DNA of 64,000 nt from Candidatus Puniceispirillum marinum IMCC1322 (GTDB taxonomy: Bacteria > Pseudomonadota > Alphaproteobacteria > Puniceispirillales > Puniceispirillaceae): the NCBI RefSeq assembly GCF_000024465.1, contig NC_014010.1, positions 744,001-808,000 on the forward strand, read 5' to 3'. The translations under genes were made by a program, and so were the position numbers. This document shows, piece after piece, positions 1-61,830 of the stretch. The notes under the pieces were generated by a model. That model had not been told where the DNA came from, did no database searches, and was given only the letters and a program-made list of their open reading frames with translations. How positions within the stretch are numbered: position 1 is the stretch's first letter; every line of letters begins with the position of its first letter.

Positions 1-612
1 CACCTTGCGCGTCAGATGCGCAAGCGCCGTGGCGTCAGAGCCTATATAAGAACCATCTTCACCAAGACCTATGGCCAGTGGTGATGCGTTTCGCGCAACC
101 ATGATAACATCGGGGAAATCTTCGACAATGGCAGCAAAGGCATAAGCCCCGTCAATTTCTGCCAGAACCTTTTGCATAGCCTGATCTGGATTAAGACCTG
201 CATCAAAAGCTTCGACAAATAAATGCGCCAGAACCTCACTATCAGTATCACTAGAAAATTTATGACCTTGTTCTATCAGACGGGCGCGGATTGGCCGATA
301 ATTTTCGATAATGCCATTATGGACAATCGCCACCCGATCAGATGCGACATGCGGATGCGCATTCATCTCGGACACACCGCCATGCGTTGCCCAGCGCGTA
401 TGGCCAATCCCCACGGTTCCGGCTAATGGGCTTTGCGTCAGCACCGCATCAAGATTAACCAGCTTTCCAACAGCACGACGAAGGTCAAAGCGCGATCCAT
501 CAAGCGTAACAATGCCCGAACTGTCATAGCCACGATATTCAAGCCTTTTAAGCGCATCAAGCAAAAGAGGACTACATGTTTGCGATCCAATCGCGCCAAC
601 AATTCCACACAT
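1..612 (-). CDS. glmS: Glutamine--fructose-6-phosphate aminotransferase (N-terminal part, runs off left edge)
   Basis: Makes glucosamine-6-phosphate from fructose-6-phosphate and glutamine in the cytoplasm, the entry step to UDP-GlcNAc for peptidoglycan and lipid A. Only the first 204 codons lie in the window; the family is about 600 residues long, so both SIS isomerase domains are outside. The frame opens with MCGIVGAIGSQ, placing the amidotransferase nucleophile Cys right after the initiator Met, followed by RLEYRGYDSSG, HTRWATHGG and HNGIIENY, all class II glutamine amidotransferase signatures. An AGAGG ribosome site precedes the ATG at 612 by seven bases. It diverges from glmU, which acts later in the same pathway. 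Confidence 0.96.
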   Translation of the reverse strand, partial: MCGIVGAIGSQTCSPLLLDALKRLEYRGYDSSGIVTLDGSRFDLRRAVGKLVNLDAVLTQSPLAGTVGIGHTRWATHGGVSEMNAHPHVASDRVAIVHNGIIENYRPIRARLIEQGHKFSSDTDSEVLAHLFVEAFDAGLNPDQAMQKVLAEIDGAYAFAAIVEDFPDVIMVARNASPLAIGLGEDGSYIGSDATALAHLTRKV

Positions 613-45814: not shown

Positions 45815-46843
45815 CTATTTTTGAATATCGTTCGAATCGTCATCTTTATAATCTAAATTCTGTGATGGCGCCGCTGCGGCTGGCATAGGGGCAGATAATG
45901 TCACATCAACGTCACGCGCCTTTTCCCTATAGACCATATAAAGGCCACCTATCAAAATCAGCCCCATCCCGATCCAGGCGCTCGTTTCCGGCCATTCATC
46001 CCAGATCAACATGCCCCAGAAAATACCTGACGGGATCGCCACATATTCGAACGGCGCAATGACCGACGCTTCTAAAACGCGATAGGCATGTGCTGACGTT
46101 ACAGACAGCAATAAAACCGAAACTCCACAAATCAGAATAAACAGATAATCCATCAGGGACAGCGACGCTGGCGCACGCAACAGAAAATCGATCGTTGGAT
46201 TATCACTATCCGGACGCTGCATGAATATATTCATTATCAGTAGCAAACCACCAACCACGAGATAGCAAATTTGCTGGACTGATACCATCGTGGCCAGATC
46301 ACCCATGCCACTAAGCCGCCGCGTCCATATCTGGCAAAGTGCATAGCTTAATGCCGACAGCACAACCAGCAATGTTTCCGGACGGAATTCATCACCACCA
46401 GGCTGAATAATGACAATCATACCCACCAGCCCAATCAAAACGGCAATAGCACGATGAATACCTATGGTTTCTCCAAGAATTGGCACCGAAAGCAAGGTGA
46501 TGAAAAGCGGCGATACAAAGAATATCGAAATGGCTATGGCCAGTGGCAAACTACCAAGCGCGGCAAAGAAGCTAATCATCGCCACCACAATGCACATGCC
46601 GCGTCCCACAAACAGCCAGAACACATGTGCTGGTAGCTTAAACATTTTGGATATGCCACGACTGACAAGCATAACAAGTATAATTGAAAATATCGCCCGC
46701 ACGAACATGATCTGACCAAGCGAAAGATAAACGCTCATCAACTTTATGAGAGCATCATTTATCGGAATAACACCCATACCAAAGGCAAATAGCGCAAGCA
46801 CAATAACGGGCTTATTAAAACTATCCTGCCACATATCAAACAT
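45815..46843 (-). CDS. EamA/DMT-superfamily transporter
   Basis: A 342-residue protein with about ten helices in two EamA repeats: one with VSLGQIMFVRAIFSIILVML and IAISIFFVSPLFITLLSVPI, and one after LLVVLSALSYALCQIWTRR. The second repeat ends with PFEYVAIPSGIFWGMLIWDE. A cytoplasmic tail of about 40 polar residues follows. Family members export metabolites such as amino acids; this substrate is unknown. It converges on the fused ccm gene with a 2-bp gap. Confidence 0.85.
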   Translation of the reverse strand: MFDMWQDSFNKPVIVLALFAFGMGVIPINDALIKLMSVYLSLGQIMFVRAIFSIILVMLVSRGISKMFKLPAHVFWLFVGRGMCIVVAMISFFAALGSLPLAIAISIFFVSPLFITLLSVPILGETIGIHRAIAVLIGLVGMIVIIQPGGDEFRPETLLVVLSALSYALCQIWTRRLSGMGDLATMVSVQQICYLVVGGLLLIMNIFMQRPDSDNPTIDFLLRAPASLSLMDYLFILICGVSVLLLSVTSAHAYRVLEASVIAPFEYVAIPSGIFWGMLIWDEWPETSAWIGMGLILIGGLYMVYREKARDVDVTLSAPMPAAAAPSQNLDYKDDDSNDIQK

Positions 46844-47068
46844 CTCTCTAACTTCGGATTTTCCGACGATTAATGTCCTCTATCAGCAATTTCAATTCTG
46901 CGAAAGCATCAAATACAATCAACATAAACTCCGATAACCGGCATATCTTGCTATTGAGAATTCAGATTGAAATTAAACATGTCTTGAGGCAGTGTGTTCA
47001 CATAAATTCATACCTCAGATCTAGCCCATGCAGGATGTAATCTGTCTTACCAGAAATAGGGTGTATTG

Positions 47069-47431
47069 ATGACAATTCTCAAAGGTTCATGCCATTGTGG
47101 TAACATTCAATTCGAAGTCCATACCGGGCTTCGTGATATTGTAAAATGCAACTGCTCGCTTTGTAGCCGCAAAAATGCGCTTATGGCACAGGCGGAACCC
47201 GAGGAATTTGTCCTTGTGTCAGGTGAAGATAGTTTAGGACTATATCAGTGGAATACCGGGGTGGCGCGGCACTATTTCTGCAAGAATTGTGGCATCTATA
47301 CGCATCACTGGCGGCGAAGCAAACCTTGCTTTGCCTATAACGTTGCCTGTATTGAAGGGGTGGATAAAGATAATATAACTGAATTCACTCAGGTTGATGG
47401 GCGAAGCTTCTCCGTCACCAAAGAAGATTAA
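47069..47431 (+). CDS. GFA (glutathione-dependent formaldehyde-activating) family protein
   Basis: A 120-residue zinc-binding protein of the GFA/CENP-V fold. The Cys pattern is GSCHCGNIQFE, KCNCSLCSRKNAL and FCKNCGIYTHH. Founder members catalyse formaldehyde-glutathione adduct formation, but most homologues have no proven function. The ATG at 47069 is used over a TTG one codon earlier. A possible partner is the aldehyde dehydrogenase gene, which starts 57 bp downstream on the same strand. Confidence 0.9.
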   Translation: MTILKGSCHCGNIQFEVHTGLRDIVKCNCSLCSRKNALMAQAEPEEFVLVSGEDSLGLYQWNTGVARHYFCKNCGIYTHHWRRSKPCFAYNVACIEGVDKDNITEFTQVDGRSFSVTKED

Positions 47432-47487: not shown

Positions 47488-48936
47488 ATGGCGTTACAGA
47501 AAAATTTCATTGCGGGCGAATGGCTTGAGGGCGACAGTGCCATCGAAAACCGTAATCCGTCTGACCTGGGCGATATTATCGGCACATATGCCCAGGCTAG
47601 TCAGGCACAGTTGGATATGGCTTTTGAAGCGGCTGAATCCGCCCAGAAAATCTGGGCGAAAACTGGCCTTGAAGCCCGGCAAACAGCCCTGATGAATATT
47701 GGCAATGAACTGATGGCGCGAAGCACTGAGCTTGGCACTCTATTGAGCCGAGAAGAAGGAAAGCCATTAGCCGAAGGCAAAGGCGAAGTTTACCGTGCCG
47801 GACAGTTCTTTACCTATTACGCCGCAGAAACATTACGGCAAATGGGTGATACAGCCGACTCTGTGCGCCCCAATATTGAAATTGATGTTCGGCGTGAACC
47901 CGTGGGCGTTGTAGCCATCATCAGCCCATGGAATTTTCCGACAGCCACGGCCGTCTGGAAAATTGCACCTGCACTGGCATTCGGCAATGCCGTTATCTGG
48001 AAGCCAGCTAATCTGGTGCCAGCTTCGGCGGTTGCCCTTGCCGAGATCATCGCACGTCAGGACTTACCAAAAGGTCTGTTCAATCTGGTGATGGGACCAG
48101 GCAGTAGCATTGGTCAGGCACTTGTCGAAAGCACGGCGATTAACGCCATCAGCTTTACCGGTTCGGTTGATGTTGGCAAGCAGATCGCCACGTCGGCAAT
48201 TGGCAACCTGACCAAAGTTCAAATGGAAATGGGATCAAAAAACGCATTGGCTGTCATGGAAGATGGTGATCTTGATCTGGCTGTCACCTGTGCGCTTGGC
48301 GGGGCTTTTGGCGGCACTGGCCAGAAATGCACCGCCTCCTCCCGCCTCATAGTGCATGAAAAAATTCACGATGAATTTGTCGAGAAACTATCAAAGGCGA
48401 CCTCGTCGATGGTTGTGGATCATGCGCTTAAAGACGGCACCCAGTTGGGGCCAGTGGTCAGTGAAACGCAGTTAAACGAAAATATGGCTTATATTGATCT
48501 AGCAAAAAGCGAGGGCGGTGAAATTCTATGTGGCGGCGAACGCGTAACGCGCGAGACCGAGGGCTATTACATGACCCCGGCCTTGGTAGCCAATACCAGC
48601 AATGACTGGCGTATCAATCGCGAAGAAATGTTTGCACCCATAGCTTGTGTTATCAAAGCGGGTACATATGACGAAGCTCTGAACCTTGTAAATGATACGA
48701 ATTTTGGTCTGACCTCGGGGATCATCACAAAGTCACTTGCACGCGCAACACATTTTCGTCGTAACGCCCGCACTGGATGCGTTATGGTCAATCTAGCCAC
48801 AGCCGGTACCGATTATCATGTTCCCTTTGGCGGGCGGGGCGACAGCTCATACGGTCCAAGGGAACAGGGTGGTTACGCCGAAGAATTCTACACCACTGTC
48901 AAAACATCCTATATTGCATCAGGAACGCCGGAATAA
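47488..48936 (+). CDS. NAD(P)-dependent aldehyde dehydrogenase (2-oxoglutarate semialdehyde dehydrogenase-like)
   Basis: Oxidises a small aldehyde to an acid. The 482-residue protein has the catalytic Cys281 in GQKCTASSR, the general base Glu247 in QMEMGSKN, the cofactor loop SFTGSVDVGK, and ISPWNFPTATAVWK. The ending with GPREQGGYAEEFYTTVKT resembles enzymes of sugar-acid and hydroxyproline breakdown that act on 2-oxoglutarate semialdehyde; I rate the substrate as uncertain. It is the first gene of a four-gene operon (48939, 49938, 51638) with gaps of 2, 18 and 2 bp. Confidence 0.9.
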   Translation: MALQKNFIAGEWLEGDSAIENRNPSDLGDIIGTYAQASQAQLDMAFEAAESAQKIWAKTGLEARQTALMNIGNELMARSTELGTLLSREEGKPLAEGKGEVYRAGQFFTYYAAETLRQMGDTADSVRPNIEIDVRREPVGVVAIISPWNFPTATAVWKIAPALAFGNAVIWKPANLVPASAVALAEIIARQDLPKGLFNLVMGPGSSIGQALVESTAINAISFTGSVDVGKQIATSAIGNLTKVQMEMGSKNALAVMEDGDLDLAVTCALGGAFGGTGQKCTASSRLIVHEKIHDEFVEKLSKATSSMVVDHALKDGTQLGPVVSETQLNENMAYIDLAKSEGGEILCGGERVTRETEGYYMTPALVANTSNDWRINREEMFAPIACVIKAGTYDEALNLVNDTNFGLTSGIITKSLARATHFRRNARTGCVMVNLATAGTDYHVPFGGRGDSSYGPREQGGYAEEFYTTVKTSYIASGTPE

Positions 48937-48938
48937 TC

Positions 48939-49919
48939 ATGCATCGCATCGATAATCTACAATATGCCAACTGGTCTGAAAAAATATTCCGCCAAATGCG
49001 TGAAGGCAATGTCGATGCTGTTCATGTGACGATTGCCTATCACGAAACCTTTCGTGAGATGGTCGCCAATGTCGAAAAGTGGAATCTATGGTTTGAACGC
49101 TTTCCAGAGCTTATTTTCCATGGCAAGACAGGGGACGATGTCCGCCGTGCAAAAGCCGAAAACCGTACCGCTATCTTTTTCGGCTTTCAAAATCCCTCAC
49201 CTATCGAAGACGATATTGGGCTGGTGGAAATATGCCACACACTTGGCGCACGATTTATGCAGCTTACCTATAACAATCAATCCCTGCTGGCTACCGGCTG
49301 TTATGAAGATGAAGATACCGGCATCACACGGATGGGACGTCAGGTTATCAAAGAGATGAATCGCGTTGGGCTGGTGGTTGATATGAGCCATTCTGCCGAA
49401 CGATCAACGCTTGATGCTATAGATGTGTCCGAACGCCCTATAGCCATAACTCATGCTAATCCTGATTTCTGGCATCCAGCCAAACGAAACAAGTCTGACG
49501 ATGTGTTAAGAGCACTAGGTGCGTCCGGCGGCATGCTTGGGTTTTCGCTGTATCCACATCATCTGAAAGATAAATCCAACTGCACGCTTGCTAGCTTTTG
49601 CGAGATGATTGCGCGAACAGCCGATTTGATGGGTATAGATAATATCGGTCTTGGCTCGGATTTATGCCAGGATCAGCCAGACTCTGTAGTTGAATGGATG
49701 CGCGTTGGCCGTTGGACAAAAGAAATCGATTATGGCGAAGGATCAGCCTCAAATGCAGGCTTTCCCCCTATGCCAGAGTGGTTTGAAGATAATCGCCATT
49801 TTGGTAATATTGAAGCGGGCTTGATGGCTCATGGCTTTTCGGCGACAGAAACCGCCGCTATCATGGGAGAGAACTGGTTGCGGTTTTACGATAACAATTT
49901 TGGTGCATCAGACGTTTAA
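48939..49919 (+). CDS. M19 (membrane dipeptidase)-family protein with altered metal site
   Basis: A 326-residue TIM-barrel protein of the renal-dipeptidase (M19) family. The later zinc ligands are kept: His151 in LVVDMSH and His172 in IAITHANP. The N-terminal HxD pair is absent (the start is MHRIDNLQYANWSEKIFRQM), and the position of the bridging Glu is Gln84 in FFGFQNPS. It has no signal peptide, so it is likely cytoplasmic. It probably acts on a substrate other than ordinary dipeptides. The start is the ATG at 48939, 2 bp after the aldehyde dehydrogenase stop; a longer frame overlaps that gene and is rejected. Confidence 0.85.
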   Translation: MHRIDNLQYANWSEKIFRQMREGNVDAVHVTIAYHETFREMVANVEKWNLWFERFPELIFHGKTGDDVRRAKAENRTAIFFGFQNPSPIEDDIGLVEICHTLGARFMQLTYNNQSLLATGCYEDEDTGITRMGRQVIKEMNRVGLVVDMSHSAERSTLDAIDVSERPIAITHANPDFWHPAKRNKSDDVLRALGASGGMLGFSLYPHHLKDKSNCTLASFCEMIARTADLMGIDNIGLGSDLCQDQPDSVVEWMRVGRWTKEIDYGEGSASNAGFPPMPEWFEDNRHFGNIEAGLMAHGFSATETAAIMGENWLRFYDNNFGASDV

Positions 49920-49937
49920 TATTTAACAGGGTCTATC

Positions 49938-51635
49938 ATGGCAAAGACTGTTACGGCAAATAACCAGACACATATACCGCTTCGGGCAGGTAACGATGTC
50001 ATGCGTCTTGCGCGAATGGGGTCTTTCCATCAAAGCAGGCTCAGCTTCATGCGGGTCTTGCTCCGGCGCCTCAAAAGCGAAAACTGGACATTCACGCGCC
50101 CTATCTGGGACATTGATGCCAATGGTGTCGGCGTTGCCACATACAGTGCTATTGGCCCCCAACGTACCTATACATTGGTTGCGTTTGCCCATGATCTGCC
50201 TGATGAGTTGAGGTCTGACCGGGTTATTGCCGAAGCATGGGATGCCACATTCAGCTTGCATGACGGGGATGTTAGTAAAGCCGACATTGAACGGTTGAAA
50301 CAAAATGTACCTCTTCAGGAGGCAGGCCGCATTTCAGATGATGAGTTGGTTTTGTCCCGGGCAAACAAATCCGTCAGACTGTTTGATTATGTTCGTGACT
50401 GCCTTGCCGCTGGCACCCAGCCAGATCTGGCAAAGATAGAACCCATCGGCTATCTCATGCGGACAAGTGCCGTATATGGATCTGGAAAGTTTGGTGCTGC
50501 AGATCGGCACGCATGGGCTGACCGCCCTGAATTCGCAGGGTCTTTTCAACCCGAATTACTTGCCGTATGGCTGATACGTGCCTTTACCATAGACATGGTT
50601 GAACATATGGCCAAAATTCAACAGCCTGATACAGCCGTGACACTCGCCCCTGATATCCGCCGCCGGTTTGGTGTTGGCAATTCTACAGGCCTTGGTATGG
50701 CACCATTTCTGATCAATCATCCGGCTCTGATCCATGCGTGGATAAATGCCCGCGAAACAGCATTAGGACGGGTGCGGGCAATAGCCTCAACTGACACCGT
50801 GACATTGGCGCATTTTATATCGCTGGTGAAACGTGCGGCTATAAATGCTGATGCGTGGCAGGTAGAGCATCCATATCAAAATTCAAAAACCGAAGGCTTG
50901 CGCACAGACCTGTCCAGCCTTACTGCATATATGCAAACTTTTGACTCTGATCAGGCCTATCCATGGGATGTGATTTATCTGTGGGGAACCGATAATCTGA
51001 CGATTGAAGGCCAGGAACAACTCGTATCGTTGCTCATCGAACCCTTTGGTGATCTTGTCGATGATCTTGCCAGCACCATGTCTGCTGATGAAACAACCCG
51101 CCATATCATTGACGGAACCCAGACGATAGCGGCATTTCGTGAACTCATAACCACCCAATATGGCTGGGCGGGCACCCTTGATTTTTCTCAGAAAGCCGAA
51201 CAGGCGCGCGTTTGGTATGTATCTCAAGAAAAGCTAGAGCCGCGACTTGGTGAACGGTTTGAAGAGCCGATTGCCCCATACGAGCAACCTCTGGCGCCCG
51301 GGCGAGATGTGATCGCCTGCTATGAAGCCATGAAAGACTGGGGGGACAACGATACCCTAGCCACGTTTTTAATGGCACATCCTGAACATCGGCATATCGT
51401 GCGCCGCGCCCAGCTTATTAATGGTCTTGATTATGCGGAAATCCGCGATAATACAATCGCTGCCAATATGATGCCGATTGATCTTTTACGGTGTAAATTA
51501 TCATTCTTTGGCGCTACCAAATTTGATCCGCGGTCAGACCGCTGGCTCCGCATCACAATGTATCAAGGCGCCCCCTTCCCCGAAGAACTGGAAAACCTGG
51601 ATCCTGATGATCTGGTTTATCCACCGTTGCAATAG
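49938..51635 (+). CDS. Uncharacterised conserved 565-residue protein
   Basis: I cannot assign a function. The frame is strong: an AGGG ribosome site, tight placement between the M19-like gene (18 bp) and the DUF3726 gene (2 bp). The protein is soluble, without signal or membrane helices, and has several Trp-rich and conserved-looking stretches: AGNDVMRLARMGSFHQSRLS at the start, GYLMRTSAVYGSGKFGAADR near 170-190, FGVGNSTGLGMAPFLINHP near 255, and GATKFDPRSDRWLRITMYQG near the end. I recall proteins with similar wording in Rhodobacterales, all unannotated. Not a transposase, transporter or known hydrolase by motif. Confidence 0.85.
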   Translation: MAKTVTANNQTHIPLRAGNDVMRLARMGSFHQSRLSFMRVLLRRLKSENWTFTRPIWDIDANGVGVATYSAIGPQRTYTLVAFAHDLPDELRSDRVIAEAWDATFSLHDGDVSKADIERLKQNVPLQEAGRISDDELVLSRANKSVRLFDYVRDCLAAGTQPDLAKIEPIGYLMRTSAVYGSGKFGAADRHAWADRPEFAGSFQPELLAVWLIRAFTIDMVEHMAKIQQPDTAVTLAPDIRRRFGVGNSTGLGMAPFLINHPALIHAWINARETALGRVRAIASTDTVTLAHFISLVKRAAINADAWQVEHPYQNSKTEGLRTDLSSLTAYMQTFDSDQAYPWDVIYLWGTDNLTIEGQEQLVSLLIEPFGDLVDDLASTMSADETTRHIIDGTQTIAAFRELITTQYGWAGTLDFSQKAEQARVWYVSQEKLEPRLGERFEEPIAPYEQPLAPGRDVIACYEAMKDWGDNDTLATFLMAHPEHRHIVRRAQLINGLDYAEIRDNTIAANMMPIDLLRCKLSFFGATKFDPRSDRWLRITMYQGAPFPEELENLDPDDLVYPPLQ

Positions 51636-51637
51636 AC

Positions 51638-52252
51638 ATGTCTGATGCCAGCTGGTCTCTTAGCGAAACTGGTGCACTTGCCCTGAAAGCCGCAAGAGGC
51701 GCTGGCATGTCATGGGGGCTTGCCGAAGAATCCAGTCATGCCGTGATATGGTTGGCTCATCGCAGTGCCCCGGGCATTGCTTCATTATGCCGGCACCTCA
51801 CCTGGTACAAGGCAGATTATGTAAACAAGGCAGAACAATGTCCCATTGCTATTGGGGCGGCTATCTCTGATGGTGCCATAGCTCTGCCTTGCGACCTTGG
51901 CATCATTCGTGAACCCTTACTTCTTGTGCCTTTTATATCCGCCAGCGCACGCCATAATGAATGGACGTTGCATATAGACGAACTGACAATCGATATTAGC
52001 GCCAGCGGCTTTTCCAGTGATATCATCAATACGGCACTGTTAATTGAAAAGGCCGATTGCCGCATTAGCCCCGGCACGCTTTCGGCCGAAACCATTGCAA
52101 AACATAAGGCAAAGGCAACAATCGGTCGCATTCCTGCCACGGCATCGGCCTGTATCAAAACATTTGAAGCCTTTGCCCATCATACATATGCGCCACCTAC
52201 TGAGCAGTCACGCCTTGCGGGAGCAGGTTCAGGTCTTAGTGACAACGATTAA
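51638..52252 (+). CDS. DUF3726-family protein
   Basis: A 204-residue protein I assign to DUF3726 from WSLSETGALALKAARGAGMSWGLAEESS at the start, quoted here by its parts ALKAARGAGMSWGLAEE and IWLAHRSAPG. No function is known. It has no membrane helix or signal peptide. It ends the four-gene operon and converges on a second aldehyde dehydrogenase 7 bp away. Co-occurrence with the 565-residue protein suggests joint function. Confidence 0.75.
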   Translation: MSDASWSLSETGALALKAARGAGMSWGLAEESSHAVIWLAHRSAPGIASLCRHLTWYKADYVNKAEQCPIAIGAAISDGAIALPCDLGIIREPLLLVPFISASARHNEWTLHIDELTIDISASGFSSDIINTALLIEKADCRISPGTLSAETIAKHKAKATIGRIPATASACIKTFEAFAHHTYAPPTEQSRLAGAGSGLSDND

Positions 52253-52259
52253 GCATTGC

Positions 52260-53702
52260 TCAGGCGTCAACAATTCCACTGATTGTTTTGACTTCAAGAA
52301 ATTCTTCAATACCCATCGCACCGCCTTCACGGCCAACACCTGATTGCTTGAATCCACCAAATGGGCTTCCTGATGCGCGCGACGCCCCATTCACCTGCAC
52401 CATGCCTGCACGAAGCTGGCGCGCGACACGATGTGCGCGTTCGGTGTCACCGGTCTGTAAATAGGCTGATAGCCCGAATGGTGTATCATTGGCGATTGCG
52501 ATTGCCTCATCTTCAGTATCGAACGGCATAATTGATAAAACCGGGCCAAAGATTTCTTCGCGCATGATCGTCATGTCATTATTTGTGTCGGCAAAGACCG
52601 TCGGCCTGACAAAATATCCCCGGTTCAAGCCATCTGGGCGACCTACACCACCAGCAACAAGACGCGCACCTTCATCAATACCTTTTTGAATCAGATCCTG
52701 CACCTTATTGAATTGCGCCTCAGACACAAGCGGGCCGATATGCTTACCCTCTTTGGATGGCATATCTACCTTGGTTTCATCGGCAACTCTGGCAGCCACT
52801 TCGACCGCTTGATCATAGGCACTGCGCTCGACAAGCATCCGCGTTGCCGCGTTGCATGACTGCCCCGTATTATTAAAGCAGAATTTGGTGCCACGCGTTA
52901 CGGCAGCTTCAATATCGCAATCGTCAAAAATCAGATTAGGCGATTTGCCCCCCAGTTCCAGAGATACATTTTTGACACTGTCGGCAGCGGCTTTCGTAAT
53001 CAAAATGCCAGCACGCGTTGACCCGGTAAAGGAGACAACATCAATATCAGGATGTGATGACATGATTGAGCCCGCACCAACACCATCGCCATTAATCAAA
53101 TTAAAAACACCCGCAGGCAAACCAACTTCATGAACCATTTCGGCAAATAGCATACCTGACATCGGCGCAATTTCGGATGGCTTTAACACCATTGTGCACC
53201 CAGCCGCGATGGCCGCACCGACTTTCAAGACAACCTGATTCATGGGCCAGTTCCATGGCGTGATCAACGCCGCCACACCAGCCGGTTCATAGGTTAGATC
53301 CTGACCAGCCGTACCCGGGCGCAATGGGCGCACCCATTCAAAAGCGGCCAATGTGCGAATAAAAGCTTTGAGATGCGATGATCCAGAGCTGGCTTGCTCA
53401 GAAATAGCCAGGTCAATCGGCGCGCCCATCTCGTCAGAAATGGTATGTGCCATCTCACGTTCGCGTGCCTGATATACCTCAAGAAGCTTTTTCAGATAAT
53501 CCAGACGCTCTTCAGGTGATGTCATTGACCATGCTGGAAATGCGCGTTTTGCCGCCGCAATCGCTGACTCGGTATCGGCTTTGCCCGCAAGCGTGATTGA
53601 GGCATATTCTTCTTCGGTTGCCGGATTAATAACCGGAACTACCCGCCCGTCAATGCTTTTAACCCATTCCCCATCAATGTAGAGATCTGTTTTATCAATC
53701 AT
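52260..53702 (-). CDS. Aldehyde dehydrogenase family protein
   Basis: A 480-residue NAD-dependent aldehyde dehydrogenase with catalytic Cys283 in GQSCNAATRML, general base Glu249 in SLELGGKSPN, cofactor loop SFTGSTRAG and ALITPWNWPMNQ. The substrate is not defined by motif. It lies opposite the four-gene operon, so it may process a related aldehyde, but it has its own upstream region and reads as an independent gene. Confidence 0.93.
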   Translation of the reverse strand: MIDKTDLYIDGEWVKSIDGRVVPVINPATEEEYASITLAGKADTESAIAAAKRAFPAWSMTSPEERLDYLKKLLEVYQAREREMAHTISDEMGAPIDLAISEQASSGSSHLKAFIRTLAAFEWVRPLRPGTAGQDLTYEPAGVAALITPWNWPMNQVVLKVGAAIAAGCTMVLKPSEIAPMSGMLFAEMVHEVGLPAGVFNLINGDGVGAGSIMSSHPDIDVVSFTGSTRAGILITKAAADSVKNVSLELGGKSPNLIFDDCDIEAAVTRGTKFCFNNTGQSCNAATRMLVERSAYDQAVEVAARVADETKVDMPSKEGKHIGPLVSEAQFNKVQDLIQKGIDEGARLVAGGVGRPDGLNRGYFVRPTVFADTNNDMTIMREEIFGPVLSIMPFDTEDEAIAIANDTPFGLSAYLQTGDTERAHRVARQLRAGMVQVNGASRASGSPFGGFKQSGVGREGGAMGIEEFLEVKTISGIVDA

Positions 53703-53849: not shown

Positions 53850-54761
53850 TTACCGTACCAGTGCTTTCTTACCTCTTTCTGCCATGTAAATACCACCAAG
53901 CACGAATGCAAGAGATAAAATATGATAAAAATACATAACCTCGCCCAGAATGATCACAGCAAATAGTGCAGCAAACACCGGTACCAGATTAACATATAGG
54001 CCTGCGCGGTTAGATCCCGCCAGTTCAACCCCACGCATAAACAATAGCTGCGCTAATAACGAAGGAAAAATGGCGCAATAAATCACCAATAACCATCCCT
54101 TTAAACCGGGCATGACTAAGTTGCCTTGTGCATATTCGATGGCACTAGATATCGTTAACGTCACCACTGCAGCAGCCGAGAAAAATGCCAACATCAAGAC
54201 GGGCGACATAACAATCCTGCGGCTCAAGCCCACTGTATAGCCGGCATAACAAAGACACGCCACCAGCATCAACAAGTCACCAACATTGAACTGGACGCTT
54301 TTAAACACGCTAAATGAACCGCCACTGACCAACAGCACGACCCCTGCAAGCGAGAGCGCAAGGCCACAAATTTGCAAAAGGCTAATCTTCGTCCGTAAAA
54401 CAACAAGACCGATAATCATGACAAAGGCAGGAATCGACCCTTGCGTGATACCAAGATTGACCGCTGTTGTATGTTGCGCGGCCAGAATGAAAAAAACAGT
54501 AAAGCCAGCCATGCCAAAAGCACCCATCATAAAGACCCAGCCAAGCCGTTCTTTCACTAGCGGTATTTGAGATATGAGTTGTTTTCGGCAAAACACAATC
54601 AGCACAAGCAGACATAGTATCCAGCGCAATTCCATCAACAGCATTGGTGAAATTTCATTAACCGAAATGCGCGCCGCAATCGTATGACCTGCCCACATCA
54701 TGGTGGCTAATGTCAGAACCACATACGGTGTGTTCCATAAATGTAAAAGAAACGCTGGCAT
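53850..54761 (-). CDS. EamA/DMT-superfamily transporter
   Basis: A 303-residue, ten-helix carrier with two EamA repeats; MMWAGHTIAARISVNEISPM begins the first, and VGDLLMLVACLCYAGYTVGL the second. The end VPVFAALFAVIILGEVMYFYH is the usual repeat tail. The ATG at 54761 is chosen; a TTG frame reaches 54800 but gives no better ribosome site. Substrate unknown. A terminator of the gene upstream lies at 54849-54876. Confidence 0.87.
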   Translation of the reverse strand: MPAFLLHLWNTPYVVLTLATMMWAGHTIAARISVNEISPMLLMELRWILCLLVLIVFCRKQLISQIPLVKERLGWVFMMGAFGMAGFTVFFILAAQHTTAVNLGITQGSIPAFVMIIGLVVLRTKISLLQICGLALSLAGVVLLVSGGSFSVFKSVQFNVGDLLMLVACLCYAGYTVGLSRRIVMSPVLMLAFFSAAAVVTLTISSAIEYAQGNLVMPGLKGWLLVIYCAIFPSLLAQLLFMRGVELAGSNRAGLYVNLVPVFAALFAVIILGEVMYFYHILSLAFVLGGIYMAERGKKALVR

Positions 54762-54848
54762 CAAAAATCCACTTGGTACTATCTGCCCAGAACTGGACAA
54801 TACAATATTTCATTTTGCGCATATTTCACAGCAACATAATAAATTTAA

Positions 54849-57267: not shown

Positions 57268-58182
57268 CTAGCTTGTGGTGACGCCGCGCAAACGATCTGA
57301 CCGCCGCCGAAGCAACTCAATTACCGTCAGCAGAATAACAGATAATATAACCAGTAAAGTGGCCACTGCCAGAATCGTCGGGCTGATCTGCTCACGAATA
57401 CCTGACCACATTTGACGCGGAATAGTACGCTGTTCAGGGCTGGCAAGAAACAGCACGGCTACCACTTCGTCAAATGACGTGATAAAGGCAAACAGTCCGC
57501 CCGAGATGACTCCGGGAATGATTAGTGGCATCTGCACCCTGAAAAAGGTCGTAATTGGCCCGGCACCTAGTGAATTGGCAGCCCGCACCAACGATTTATC
57601 AAAACCAACCAGGGTTGCCGTCACTGTAATGATAACAAAAGGCGTTCCCAGCACCGCATGTGCCATGATCACGCCTAAATAGGTCTGGCTTAACTGTACT
57701 TTGGAATAGAAAAAGAACATGCCTGCCGCGGTAATAACCAATGGCACAATCATCGGTGAAATGAGAATTGACATGATCAGCCGACGATATGGCATTTCTT
57801 CACGACTCAGACCAATCGCCGCCAAAGTCCCCAGCGCCGTCGATAACAAAGTCGCACAGATACCAATGAAAAAGCTGTTACGAATAGCCCGCATCCATTG
57901 CGAGTTATTCCATGTATCGCTGACCCACGCCCAGTCAAACGGCGCATCGGGGACTTTCATACCATTCGTAAGAATATCTTTATACCAGCGCAGCGAATAG
58001 GCTTCCGGGTCAAAAGCCAGCATGCCTTCGGTAAAGCTGAAATATGGAGACACATTGAATGATAACGGCAACACAACCAAAATAGGCAACATCAAAAATA
58101 TGAATACAAGCCCGCATATCACGCGGAATGTGTAATGCCAGATCCGTTCGCCAGTCGAGGTATAGGGAGGAAGTTGTGCCAT
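57268..58182 (-). CDS. Polyamine/opine-type ABC transporter permease (PotC-like)
   Basis: Inner-membrane permease subunit. The 304-residue protein has about six helices and the EAA loop in LVRAANSLGAGPITTFFRVQMPL, quoted as AANSLGAGPITTFFRVQMPL, which contacts the ATPase. GGLFAFITSFDEVVAVLFL is typical of PotC. It lies 7 bp after the PotB-like gene and ends the operon. Confidence 0.92.
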   Translation of the reverse strand: MAQLPPYTSTGERIWHYTFRVICGLVFIFLMLPILVVLPLSFNVSPYFSFTEGMLAFDPEAYSLRWYKDILTNGMKVPDAPFDWAWVSDTWNNSQWMRAIRNSFFIGICATLLSTALGTLAAIGLSREEMPYRRLIMSILISPMIVPLVITAAGMFFFYSKVQLSQTYLGVIMAHAVLGTPFVIITVTATLVGFDKSLVRAANSLGAGPITTFFRVQMPLIIPGVISGGLFAFITSFDEVVAVLFLASPEQRTIPRQMWSGIREQISPTILAVATLLVILSVILLTVIELLRRRSDRLRGVTTS

Positions 58183-59516: not shown

Positions 59517-60608
59517 TTACTTGGCCAACCAAGAATTGAAACGCTCGTTCAATTCGTCAGCATTATCAGCCCAGAATTCAAAATCGTTTTGCAACGCATT
59601 TTTGAAATTAGCAGGAGCTGTTGGCATGTGGTCTGCCATGTTGATCGCCGGGTTATCATGGTAAGTACCAATCTTGGCAACTGAAGATGCACGCGCAGGA
59701 CCATATGAAATCCATGAGGCCTGTGCAGCAAGCTGCTCAGTGGCAGTTGAGAAGGCAACAAAGTCCATTGCCGCTTCTTTGTTCTTGCTGCCTTTTGGAA
59801 TGACCCAGAGATCAAGGTCATAAACCTGACCGTCCCAGACCATTTCGAATGTCTGGTCTTCAGCCGCAACCGCGTTGAACACACGACCATTCCACGCTGT
59901 TGTGAAGATCACTTCACCGTCAGCAAGCAACTGTGGTGGCTGTGCACCAGCTTCCCACCAGACGATATCGTCTTTGATGGTATCAAGCTTGGCAAACGCA
60001 CGTGCAACACCTTCTTCGGTACCCAGAACGTCATAGACTTCACTTGTTGGAACGCCATCGGCGATCAATGCGAATTCCAGAGTCACCTTAGGATTCTTAC
60101 GCATGCCACGCTTGCCCGGATAGGCATCGGTGTTAAAGAAGTCAGCCATGGTCTTTGGCGCATTCCAGTTACGAACCTTGCTTGAATCGTAAACATATAC
60201 AGATGACCAGATGATGTTTGATACAGCGCAATCATGCAATGTACCTGGCAGGAAGTCATCTACCGCCGGCGTACCATCAGGCGCTGCTGGCAGCATGCTG
60301 GGATCGATTTCTTCAAGAAGACCTTCATCACAAGCGCGGATCGCGTCTGACAATTCAACGTCAACAACATCCCAGGTTACGTTACCTGACTCAACCTGTG
60401 CTTTGATCTCGGCAATACCCCCGCCGTAATCTTCAGACACAATGGTCTTGCCTGTGCTAGCCATCCAAGGCTTATGATAGGCCTCGACCTGGGATTTGGT
60501 GTACGCACCACCCCATGATACGACTGTCAGGTCTGCCGCAACAGCACTGCCTGCCGTAAAAGCCGACATTGCCGCAATAGCGACCAGTTTATTGGTAAGT
60601 TTAGACAT
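59517..60608 (-). CDS. ABC transporter periplasmic substrate-binding protein (PotD/spermidine-putrescine type)
   Basis: Captures the substrate in the periplasm. The 363-residue protein has a signal peptide (about 1-24, ending AVAAD) and a type II periplasmic-binding fold: LTVVSWGGAYTKSQVEAY, WDVVDVELSDAIRACDEGLL, and FTTAWNGRVFNAVAAED with aromatic residues likely to hold a cationic ligand. A GGGAG ribosome site precedes the ATG. Position next to a divergent creatinase suggests a guanidino compound such as creatine, but the family also takes polyamines. Confidence 0.92.
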   Translation of the reverse strand: MSKLTNKLVAIAAMSAFTAGSAVAADLTVVSWGGAYTKSQVEAYHKPWMASTGKTIVSEDYGGGIAEIKAQVESGNVTWDVVDVELSDAIRACDEGLLEEIDPSMLPAAPDGTPAVDDFLPGTLHDCAVSNIIWSSVYVYDSSKVRNWNAPKTMADFFNTDAYPGKRGMRKNPKVTLEFALIADGVPTSEVYDVLGTEEGVARAFAKLDTIKDDIVWWEAGAQPPQLLADGEVIFTTAWNGRVFNAVAAEDQTFEMVWDGQVYDLDLWVIPKGSKNKEAAMDFVAFSTATEQLAAQASWISYGPARASSVAKIGTYHDNPAINMADHMPTAPANFKNALQNDFEFWADNADELNERFNSWLAK

Positions 60609-60629
60609 AATATTTTCTCCCTTATTGTT

Positions 60630-60720
60630 ACCCCTTATGGGGTTCTACGCACATAACGATCCGAGGTGCTTTGCATTACCCTTTGTAAGGACCGTCAATT
60701 CATGACCATTGTCATGGTCA
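60630..60720 (-). promoter_or_regulatory. Two small inverted repeats in the ATPase-to-binding-protein gap
   Basis: TGACCAT-TGTC-ATGGTCA (60703-60720) is a perfect 7-bp stem that begins at the ATPase stop codon. ACCCC-TTAT-GGGGT (60630-60643) lies 20 bases before the binding-protein ATG. Such hairpins in this position are known to protect upstream RNA or set processing points. Confidence 0.55.
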
Positions 60721-61830
60721 AACTGTTGTCCCGCAATCAAGTGCCCGGCAATCATCCGTATTCCAAGCCACAAATAAATCTGCACCAATGTCCAGTCCCA
60801 AAGGTCCTGCCGTGTTTGGCACCTTTACGATAAATTGATCATTGCCAGTCACCATCATCCGGCACCTGATATGGTCGCCTAGATAGATCAGTTCCAAAAC
60901 CTTTGCATCCAGTGCGCTCATTGACTTAGATTTCTTGTCGGTCAATACGCACCTCTCTGGGCGGATAGACAGCATTGTTTTGGAACCTGGCCCATCAATA
61001 TTCACAGCCAAAGCCTTAACAATATCGCCCTGATCCAGCTTAACGCTGGCAACATTACCGCTTACATTATCCACAACACCTGGAAGCTGGTTATTTTCGC
61101 CAATAAACTGCGCAACGAAGGCATTTTCCGGCTTTTCATAAAGCGTAACGGGATCGTCAAGCTGTTGAATAATGCCATCATCAAACACCGCAATCCGATT
61201 TGACATGGTCAATGCCTCGGATTGATCATGCGTTACATAAACAACCGTCACACCTAGATTTTCATGGATATGCTTAATCTCATACTGCATATGCTCACGA
61301 AGTTGCTTATCAAGCGCGCCAAGCGGCTCATCCATCAAAACAAGGCTAGGGTTGAAAACCAGTGCTCTTGCTAGCGCGATACGCTGTTGCTGACCACCCG
61401 AAAGCTGGGCTGGTTTACGATCAGCAAACTGCCGCATCTGCACCATATCTAGAACGTTACGAACTTTGTCTTCTACATCAGACGAATTGAATTTACGGAC
61501 TTTAAGCGGAAAGGCCAGATTTTCAGCCACCGTCATATGCGGAAACAGTGCGTAATTTTGAAACACCATCCCGATACCGCGTTTATGCGGCGGGATGTTG
61601 TTGATCGCCACATTATTGAGTTTGATGTCGCCATGCGTTGCGGTTTCAAAACCGGCAAGCATCATCAGACAGGTTGTTTTACCCGAACCTGATGGCCCAA
61701 GCATGGTGACGAATTCACCCTCGGCAATATCAAGGTTCAGATCCTTGACCACAAGCGAGACACCATCATAGCTTTTTTGAACACCCTGAAATGATACAAA
61801 AGCGTTTTGCGGCGCGGACATTACTGACAT
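60718..61830 (-). CDS. ABC transporter ATP-binding protein (PotA-like)
   Basis: Energises the permease pair. The 370-residue protein has Walker A GPSGSGKTT near 45, the Q loop FQNYALFPHMTVAENLAF, the ABC signature LSGGQQQRIALARAL, Walker B LVLMDEPLGALD, and the switch His in VTHDQSEALTMS. A C-terminal TOBE domain (about 280-365) is typical of PotA/MalK-type subunits. First gene of the operon. The start at 61830 has no clear ribosome site; Met4 at 61821 is an alternative. Confidence 0.94.
   Translation of the reverse strand: MSVMSAPQNAFVSFQGVQKSYDGVSLVVKDLNLDIAEGEFVTMLGPSGSGKTTCLMMLAGFETATHGDIKLNNVAINNIPPHKRGIGMVFQNYALFPHMTVAENLAFPLKVRKFNSSDVEDKVRNVLDMVQMRQFADRKPAQLSGGQQQRIALARALVFNPSLVLMDEPLGALDKQLREHMQYEIKHIHENLGVTVVYVTHDQSEALTMSNRIAVFDDGIIQQLDDPVTLYEKPENAFVAQFIGENNQLPGVVDNVSGNVASVKLDQGDIVKALAVNIDGPGSKTMLSIRPERCVLTDKKSKSMSALDAKVLELIYLGDHIRCRMMVTGNDQFIVKVPNTAGPLGLDIGADLFVAWNTDDCRALDCGTTV

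Follow-up and report, generated by a model that had tools for sequence, protein, structure and literature searches.

The four genes considered here lie at positions 47488 to 52252 of the window, i.e. the whole stretch of 64,000 nucleotides of Candidatus Puniceispirillum marinum IMCC1322 that was analysed. The open reading frame list confirms what the first-pass annotation had described: all four are on the plus strand and are separated by gaps of 2, 18 and 2 bp. The locus and its immediate neighbours are organised as follows:

47066 to 47431, plus strand: GFA-family open reading frame (Pfam), an upstream local neighbour outside the conserved unit
47488 to 48936, plus strand: aldehyde dehydrogenase (ALDH; Aldedh), 482 residues, from the open reading frame list and Pfam
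48939 to 49919, plus strand: M19-family protein with replaced metal ligands, 326 residues, a relative of PDB 2i5g ('amidohydrolase')
49938 to 51635, plus strand: U565, the core protein, 565 residues, with no Pfam or NCBIfam family and no recognised fold
51638 to 52252, plus strand: DUF3726 protein (Pfam), 204 residues, modelled with an Ldh_2 fold
52260 to 53702, minus strand: second, convergent ALDH, which marks the 3' end of the unit and is also found in SAR116 relatives
53850 to 54800, minus strand: putative EamA-type transporter, which adjoins the cluster in SAR116 relatives too

The gene spacing supports a single predicted transcript running from ALDH to DUF3726. The unit ends there because the convergent ALDH on the minus strand terminates 7 bp beyond the last gene. 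Promoter-like matches in the region are not in excess (6, versus 7.7 in shuffled sequences), while terminator-like matches number 9 versus 5.3. A Pfam scan of the neighbours at 45.8-54.8 kb revealed no regulator gene, and no LysR, Ldh_2 or betaine transporter gene lies beside the locus. The GFA-family frame starts 422 bp before ALDH on the same strand (420 bp in the first-pass annotation, which had proposed it as a possible member of the cluster). This membership was rejected: of the loci whose gene order was compared, L075 alone has the gene at the corresponding position, and it is absent there from all 37 sampled loci.

The Pfam assignments are clear for Aldedh (E 1.6e-152, 508.7 bits), Peptidase_M19 (2.8e-74), DUF3726 (2.3e-14) and GFA (3.4e-11), while U565 matched no Pfam and no NCBIfam family. 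A narrower assignment of ALDH was not obtained: the best NCBIfam resemblance, to alpha-ketoglutaric semialdehyde dehydrogenase, scored 469 bits, far below the cut-off of 770, and none of the 25 NCBIfam matches shown reached its cut-off.

The M19-family protein scores 250.6 bits against PF01244 (membrane dipeptidase; cut-off 26) and is a member of that family. The loss of metal ligands noticed earlier in this protein proved real and is conserved across 107 aligned sequences, drawn from proteins of 300-360 residues. The roles of the positions concerned (bridging Glu, HxD and others) are those we take over from renal dipeptidase. The place of the bridging Glu is occupied by Gln in 107/107 sequences, that of the window included, and the His of the LTH motif is replaced by Tyr in all 107. 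The HxD motif reads LxY (Leu in 106/107, Tyr in 100/107); this site was placed by motif position, because structure-relative alignments stop short of it. The binuclear metal ligands HxD and bridging Glu are missing, while both second-site His residues, the Arg and the Asp are retained in every one of the 107 sequences. Because the replacement residues are so strongly conserved, the protein is, judging from the alignment, not a decayed one. The nearest solved relative is PDB 2i5g (E 9.8e-53, residues 4-318), which in alignment with the M19 protein also carries Gln at the bridging-Glu place.

For U565, structure prediction gave a confident model (pLDDT 90) with no convincing match in the PDB, which is reported here for the first time. 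Whole-chain comparison with solved structures yielded scattered, weak matches, the best being E 0.19 in Foldseek and Z 4.7 over 101 residues in VIA. Acetyltransferase-like matches at Z 3-4.4 were among them and were dismissed as noise. U565 may nevertheless have a known fold that the two aligners did not list. Inspection by eye for metal, flavin or P-loop motifs found none that stood out. No enzyme activity can be deduced from the model.

The predicted structure of DUF3726 has an Ldh_2 (type-2 malate/lactate dehydrogenase) fold from which about 160 internal residues are missing, likewise a new observation. The 14 best superpositions are all on Ldh_2 structures (Z 9.2-10.7 over 166-176 residues), a family (PF02615) that includes the delta1-piperideine-2-carboxylate reductase 1wtj and the ureidoglycolate dehydrogenase 4fjs. 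The top one, 3uoe, has Z 10.7 over 176 residues at an rmsd of 3.8, versus Z 3.2 for the best structure outside the family. The Foldseek E value of the model is only 0.24, and PF02615 is absent among the Pfam matches up to E 10. DUF3726 has 204 residues versus 339 in the full-length Ldh_2 chain, and the 176 aligned residues cover chain range -2..333. The DUF3726 N-terminus can be aligned by profile with the Ldh_2 of the operon itself, and the C-terminal tail mostly reads GxGLxDND. At the SHG motif of Ldh, the profile alignment shows a gap; one DUF3726 sequence, that of L150, has SHG at another place.

Conservation of the neighbourhood was assessed in 37 loci from 35 genomes across Alphaproteobacteria (the U565-bearing genomes G064, G074 and G088 were left out) and in 84 closely related named loci. 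DUF3726 follows U565 in 34/37 and 84/84 of these, respectively, and M19 precedes U565 in 31/37 and 76/84. All four genes occur together in only 13 of the 37 sampled loci, with ALDH next to M19 in 11 of those 13; among the named loci, 53 of 84 have the full set. Consequently, the conserved core is the triad M19-U565-DUF3726 and ALDH is a frequent extra, a relative scoring above 590 bits being found upstream on the same strand in 53/84 named loci. The first-pass interpretation is thus partly supported. Its idea of a conserved module in other marine alphaproteobacteria held, and the module reaches beyond the sea to plasmids of Mesorhizobium, Aminobacter and Pseudomonas. In the genus that holds a named Ruegeria, U565 is present in 52 of 54 genomes. 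U565 and DUF3726 are fused into one gene in L070 and L109.

Additional members are often found in the close named operons, namely LysR (within 7 kb in 46/84 related loci), an Ldh_2-type reductase and betaine transporters (BCCT or ProXWV); the Ldh, LysR, HDAC and BCCT labels come from a profile search that covered L069-L152 and not L032-L068. A gene of the histone-deacetylase family replaces ALDH in L077, L079 and L080 and directly precedes U565 in L136 and L149. U565 itself forms several clades, with copies at the 45-48% and 40-42% level in genomes that have a closer copy as well. The tree was built from proteins of 500-620 residues, those of named loci being admitted up to 830 residues and trimmed at 620; the conserved-residue count left out 5 of 122 sequences as fragmentary or deep. 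Rhizobial relatives (about 30% identity) lie beside polyamine-type ABC genes without ALDH. Since these relatives differ in this way and only 13/37 loci have all four genes, some relatives appear to serve other substrates.

The linked genes point to the type of substrate. BCCT genes occur on the same strand within 7 kb in 25/84 named loci and fall into two sequence clusters. ProXWV follows Ldh in Aminobacter, and ProX-, ProW- and ATPase-like genes precede ALDH in L053 and L054, which belong to 1.4-Mb genomes. A full-length SoxA-like protein was found in 7/127 scanned stretches. Five of them (L071, L072, L125, L107 and L047) hold N-methylglutamate dehydrogenase (mgd)-clade genes within 8 kb. Their SoxA-like proteins form one clade with the copy at 254 kb of the window genome (62-71% identity), versus 46-47% and 40-41% to its two other copies; the sox-like genes of L051 and L060 fall outside the mgd clade. 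In Ruegeria sp. TM1040, LysR-ALDH-M19-BCCT-U565-DUF3726-Ldh directly adjoins mgd-type genes and a tmaR-like gene, and the gene list of the 38 kb viewed contains neither gmaS nor mgs. P. inhibens likewise has the mgd-clade linkage without gmaS/mgs in the stretch viewed. The first-pass annotation had proposed, from the ALDH at the head of the operon, breakdown of a nitrogen-containing compound through an aldehyde. Breakdown of a nitrogen compound is favoured by the betaine transporter genes that recur beside related operons and by the mgd-clade genes that accompany some of the loci.

In the window genome itself, the mgd-clade genes lie at 254 kb, unlinked to the four-gene unit, in a block with dimethylamine-monooxygenase genes, an AraC/GlxA-type regulator and sox-like genes. 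The order matches the one given for R. pomeroyi in PMC13390433, dmmDABC-tmaR-mgdABCD. The genome also has gmaS-mgs-type genes, so its Mgd would have another use as well. Its only Ldh_2 gene was found, as a new observation, in a ProXWV (betaine ABC) operon, and the product is 62% identical to the Ldh_2 encoded right after DUF3726 in G109, a genome of the same family. Molybdenum-hydroxylase-like genes stand beside this unlinked Ldh, near urate-degradation-like genes. In G109, a gene for glutathione-dependent formaldehyde dehydrogenase is found three genes ahead of U565; this gene and the upstream GFA gene of the window would be fitting for a release of one-carbon units. Across 289 genomes, SoxA/MgdC-like genes (E<=1e-180) occur in 35/39 genomes with U565 versus 71/250 without, a comparison in which genome size and lifestyle act as confounders and Mgd is not separated from sarcosine oxidase.

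Homarine (N-methylpicolinate) is a nitrogen compound and an osmolyte of marine algae, and SAR116 is an abundant group of the surface ocean. The four genes are probably the SAR116 form of a homarine catabolic cluster leading to N-methylglutamate and glutamate. What is observed is the gene anatomy, the conservation of the triad, the predicted DUF3726 fold and, in other genomes, linkage to mgd-clade genes, Ldh_2 and betaine transporters; which substrate is used, in which order the steps run and what each enzyme catalyses we infer. Homarine would be taken up by a betaine transporter, for which the unlinked ProXWV is a candidate here. U565 and DUF3726, its partner, would be the first to attack the N-methylpyridinium ring. 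A C-N bond of the opened product would then be hydrolysed by the altered M19 protein, and ALDH would oxidise the resulting semialdehyde. The Ldh_2 enzyme, unlinked here and linked elsewhere, would reduce an N-methyl imine to N-methylglutamate, which Mgd may convert to glutamate and a one-carbon unit. N-methylglutamate is proposed as the product because mgd-clade genes are linked without gmaS/mgs in the TM1040 and P. inhibens stretches, and it fits the picolinate skeleton.

An operon named homABCDER has reportedly been described for this pathway, including in SAR116. The hom operon and the present cluster seem alike in their marine alphaproteobacterial distribution, in betaine-type uptake and in having a regulator and five genes in the full form, and N-methylglutamate dehydrogenase would be the next step in both; the window form is without linked LysR and Ldh_2 genes. 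According to PMC12817926, R. pomeroyi draws down homarine quickly. A conserved homarine pathway is the subject of a 2026 paper (Nat Microbiol 11:1531), as cited in PMC13390433. Because of that paper, the pathway has probably been characterised already, and the earlier label 'uncharacterised' is probably out of date.

It is unlikely, though worth weighing, that the cluster degrades another betaine (trigonelline, stachydrine or another N-methylated heterocycle or amino acid), again with an N-methyl amino acid as a product. Linkage to BCCT and ProXWV says 'betaine' and not which one, and substrates may differ between clades because U565 has several. Trigonelline degradation (tgn) likewise attacks an N-methylpyridinium carboxylate and includes an aldehyde dehydrogenase step, but it relies on a flavin monooxygenase pair, none of which is among the four genes here. 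The known trigonelline route ends in methylamine and succinate, and the mgd-clade linkage noted above points instead to N-methylglutamate.

Far less probable is a part in the demethylation of glycine betaine, dimethylglycine and sarcosine, which the solved relative 2i5g, presumably a P. aeruginosa gene of the dgcAB region, brings to mind. The breakdown of glycine betaine is not known to require an ALDH or Ldh_2. In V. natriegens and P. aeruginosa, a dipeptidase gene and a hypothetical gene are reported to precede dgcAB (PMC12093977); the passage concerned names no other neighbour of the dipeptidase gene. Relatives of a P. inhibens FAD-dependent oxidoreductase lie within about 10 kb in 20 scanned stretches, some at only 25-28% identity, yet no gene of this type recurs inside the operon in the loci whose gene order was compared, and genes of the sarcosine-oxidase and MttB/dimethylglycine types are found elsewhere in the window genome. 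Degradation of peptides or polyamines via a dipeptidase and an aminoaldehyde dehydrogenase is the least credible of all. The M19 and ALDH annotations, the polyamine-type ABC genes of rhizobial relatives and the histone-deacetylase-family genes would suit it, but in the window-type clade it is betaine carriers that are linked to the operons, and a dipeptidase reading of the M19 protein was not adopted, its metal site being replaced throughout the alignment.

Beyond the homarine assignment, a broader and distinctly speculative proposal is that M19-U565-DUF3726 may be a new, reusable three-protein module that opens N-methylated heterocyclic betaines with no recognisable flavin, haem or Rieske part. 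U565 would provide an orphan fold, DUF3726 would be a dehydrogenase that has lost its nucleotide-binding part and now presents an imino-acid-like substrate to U565, and the M19 active site would have been re-purposed. Different betaines might then be served by clades that differ in their transporters and in their tailoring enzymes (ALDH, Ldh_2, HDAC-family hydrolase).

The grouping of the M19 protein with PDB 2i5g and its conserved metal-ligand replacements are new here. Through the probable assignment of the genes to homarine catabolism, two families that have had no name would gain a place in the marine nitrogen cycle that can be put to the test. Should U565-DUF3726 open the pyridinium ring, the ring opening would take place on a fold that has no known relative.

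The four-gene set described in the first-pass annotation is real. The positions of its four plus-strand open reading frames were confirmed, with gaps of 2, 18 and 2 bp in ORF coordinates, and Pfam returned the domains that had been named: Aldedh, Peptidase_M19, none for the 565-residue protein (U565), and DUF3726. The pathway that these genes encode is most likely the homarine (N-methylpicolinate betaine) route reportedly published in 2026. The locus and its surroundings in the closed genome of 2,753,527 bases are as follows:

Window 47488-52252, plus strand: aldehyde dehydrogenase (ALDH), M19, U565 and DUF3726 genes
Window 45815-46843 and 53850-54800: EamA-type transporter genes flanking the cluster on both sides and shared with SAR116 relatives
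Window 57268-58182 and about 59526-61797, minus strand: genes for a polyamine-type ABC transporter, beginning about 5 kb past the cluster; compared with the genes beside the Sinorhizobium triad (U565, M19 and a protein in the place of DUF3726), identity is 60% for the ATPase and 30% for the binding protein

U565 is present in 39 of 289 alphaproteobacterial genomes and on 168 of 72,556 plasmids. In one rhodobacterial family, sampled at nearly one genome per genus, it was found in 134 of 295 genomes, a count that takes in a short match at E 7e-4 (G396), and in one genus of that family, which includes a named Ruegeria, in 52 of 54. In G252, G154, G527, G558, G583, G599 and G629 a closer copy is accompanied by further ones, which share about 47% and 40-42% identity with the query. 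In G289, G303, G352, G496 and G523 the matched range contains one TGA, and these may be pseudogenes.

The neighbourhood was counted in a class sample of 37 loci from 35 genomes, with the window left out and with some contigs short or the gene broken. DUF3726 lies downstream on the same strand in 34 loci and M19 at most 5 kb upstream in 31, so the proposed conservation holds for the triad, but only 13 have the complete set of M19, DUF3726 and an ALDH no more than 6.5 kb upstream. A second set comprises 84 named loci: four from plasmids and the best 80 of 577 relatives. Here DUF3726 comes after U565 in all 84, M19 before it in 76, and ALDH is upstream in 53; a type-2 malate/lactate dehydrogenase (Ldh_2) lies at most 5 kb away in 28, a BCCT betaine carrier at most 7 kb away in 25, and LysR is present in 46. 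ALDH, M19, DUF3726, Ldh_2 and LysR occur jointly in 20. With the start codons chosen by the analyst, 61 of these 84 loci show a 4-base overlap between U565 and DUF3726; L070 (Mesorhizobium) and L109 (a Rhodoferax MAG) carry the two as a single fused gene. These neighbour counts, overlaps and fusions make the triad a functional unit, with ALDH as a frequent member. Fuller forms are found in plasmid records:

P. inhibens DSM 17395: LysR-ALDH-M19-U565-DUF3726
P. inhibens DSM 17395, second copy on the same plasmid: BCCT present, adjoining sarcosine-oxidase-type genes
TM1040 and P. inhibens M644: LysR-ALDH-M19-BCCT-U565-DUF3726-Ldh
Aminobacter: LysR-ALDH-M19-U565-DUF3726-Ldh, then a betaine ABC transporter

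Distant rhizobial triads (about 30% identity), among them L155 and L158 on Sinorhizobium and Neorhizobium plasmids, retain U565, M19 and a protein in the place of DUF3726, arranged differently. They are accompanied by an IclR regulator gene and by genes of a polyamine-type ABC transporter; a Pfam search of the DUF3726-place protein in L155 gave zero matches. A histone deacetylase (HDAC)-family hydrolase gene replaces ALDH in L077, L079 and L080 and lies immediately upstream of U565 in L136 and L149. Together, these rhizobial triads and substitutions suggest that the module is used for several substrates.

The homarine ring contains five carbons and carries a carboxylate, and N-methylglutamate has one carbon fewer. 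In the proposed mechanism, one of the ring carbons would consequently have to be lost, plausibly as formate following a cut beside the ring nitrogen. U565-DUF3726 is the candidate for ring attack and M19 for C-N hydrolysis; ALDH would oxidise a C5 semialdehyde, and Ldh_2 would reduce the N-methyl imine. The last role is in line with the action of Ldh_2 enzymes on alpha-imino acids; the Ldh_2-type structure 1wtj is titled delta1-piperideine-2-carboxylate reductase.

The nearest solved relative of M19 is PDB 2i5g. The loss of metal ligands noted earlier was borne out: the first metal site is gone, and its replacements are conserved across 107 sequences, in which His151, His172, Arg183 and Asp241 are invariant. 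Such constraint speaks for an altered but working active site. For the DUF3726 model (pLDDT 89), the best Foldseek match was weak (E 0.24) and an Ldh_2-type enzyme, and the top 15 VIA rows were all of this type (14 at Z 9.2-10.7, one at 8.1; next row Z 3.2). In profile comparison, the N-terminus of DUF3726 aligns with the Ldh_2 encoded in the operon itself (probability 65%, E 6e-5); for two unrelated profiles the probability is 0.2%. Since the match covers nearly the whole Ldh_2 chain with 176 of 339 residues aligned, about 160 internal residues are missing from DUF3726, and the missing segment would be the nucleotide-binding part. The U565 model (pLDDT 90) gave best matches of E 0.19 in Foldseek and Z 4.7 over 101 residues in VIA. 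Across 117 sequences, 93 of its positions reach a conservation of 98% or more; they include 17 Arg, 12 Asp or Glu, 4 Trp and one His but no Cys, a composition that points to no obvious metal- or thiol-based site.

SoxA/MgdC-like proteins (E<=1e-180, a threshold that mixes N-methylglutamate dehydrogenase, Mgd, with sarcosine oxidase, Sox) occur in 35 of the 39 U565-bearing genomes versus 71 of the 250 that lack it (Fisher p 2e-13), and in 32 of 33 versus 61 of 202 when completeness is 90% or more and contamination 5% or less. The exceptions are G036, G074, G084 and G173, three of which are less than 85% complete. As genome size and lifestyle confound the test and the threshold is mixed, this co-occurrence backs the pathway reading as support, not proof. 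A full-length SoxA-like protein is encoded in 7 of 127 scanned stretches, and five of the seven form a clade with the copy at 254 kb in the window genome (62-71% identity; with the two other copies of that genome they share 46-47% and 40-41%); those of L051 and L060 fall outside. The 254-kb copy belongs to a block in which dimethylamine-monooxygenase genes, a regulator of the AraC/GlxA type and sox-like genes follow the order that PMC13390433 reports for R. pomeroyi: dmmDABC (SPO1579-1581), tmaR (SPO1584) and mgdABCD (SPO1585-1588). That paper also assigns Mgd a part in homarine catabolism.

The TM1040 and window-genome AraC/GlxA-type regulators share 51% identity, and the TM1040 "sarcosine oxidase" genes beside the operon are other than the ordinary kind. 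None of the genes listed in the 38 kb viewed in TM1040, where the plasmid-record gene table is incomplete, is gmaS or mgs; its Mgd-type enzyme therefore seems to serve the U565 operon. The window genome carries genes at 1.88 Mb that we take to be of the gmaS-mgs type, and so, judging by gene content, it could also form N-methylglutamate from methylamine. Beside its dmm-mgd block, a 114-residue ORF (G000:C1:248721-249062; L193:3722-4063) repeats the start of a longer glutamine-amidotransferase-like gene in the gmaS-mgs-type cluster (L209:10715-11659) and looks like a truncated duplicate.

The single Ldh_2 gene of the window genome lies at 1.54 Mb, as the last gene of a ProX-ProW-ProV operon:

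G000:C1:1542875-1546927 (L196:7876-11928): ProXWV betaine ABC operon ending in Ldh_2

Its product shares 62% identity with the Ldh_2 that comes directly after M19-U565-DUF3726 in the same-family genome G109, and only 37% with that of TM1040. In G109, a glutathione-dependent formaldehyde dehydrogenase and an amidase-like gene stand just before M19-U565-DUF3726-Ldh_2 (L057:12221-14594). The ProXWV-Ldh_2 operon is probably the unlinked rest of the pathway, supplying the transporter and the last reductase. What is added here to the homarine route is a structural reading of DUF3726, a U565 without a recognised fold, and a pathway that would be split in the window genome.
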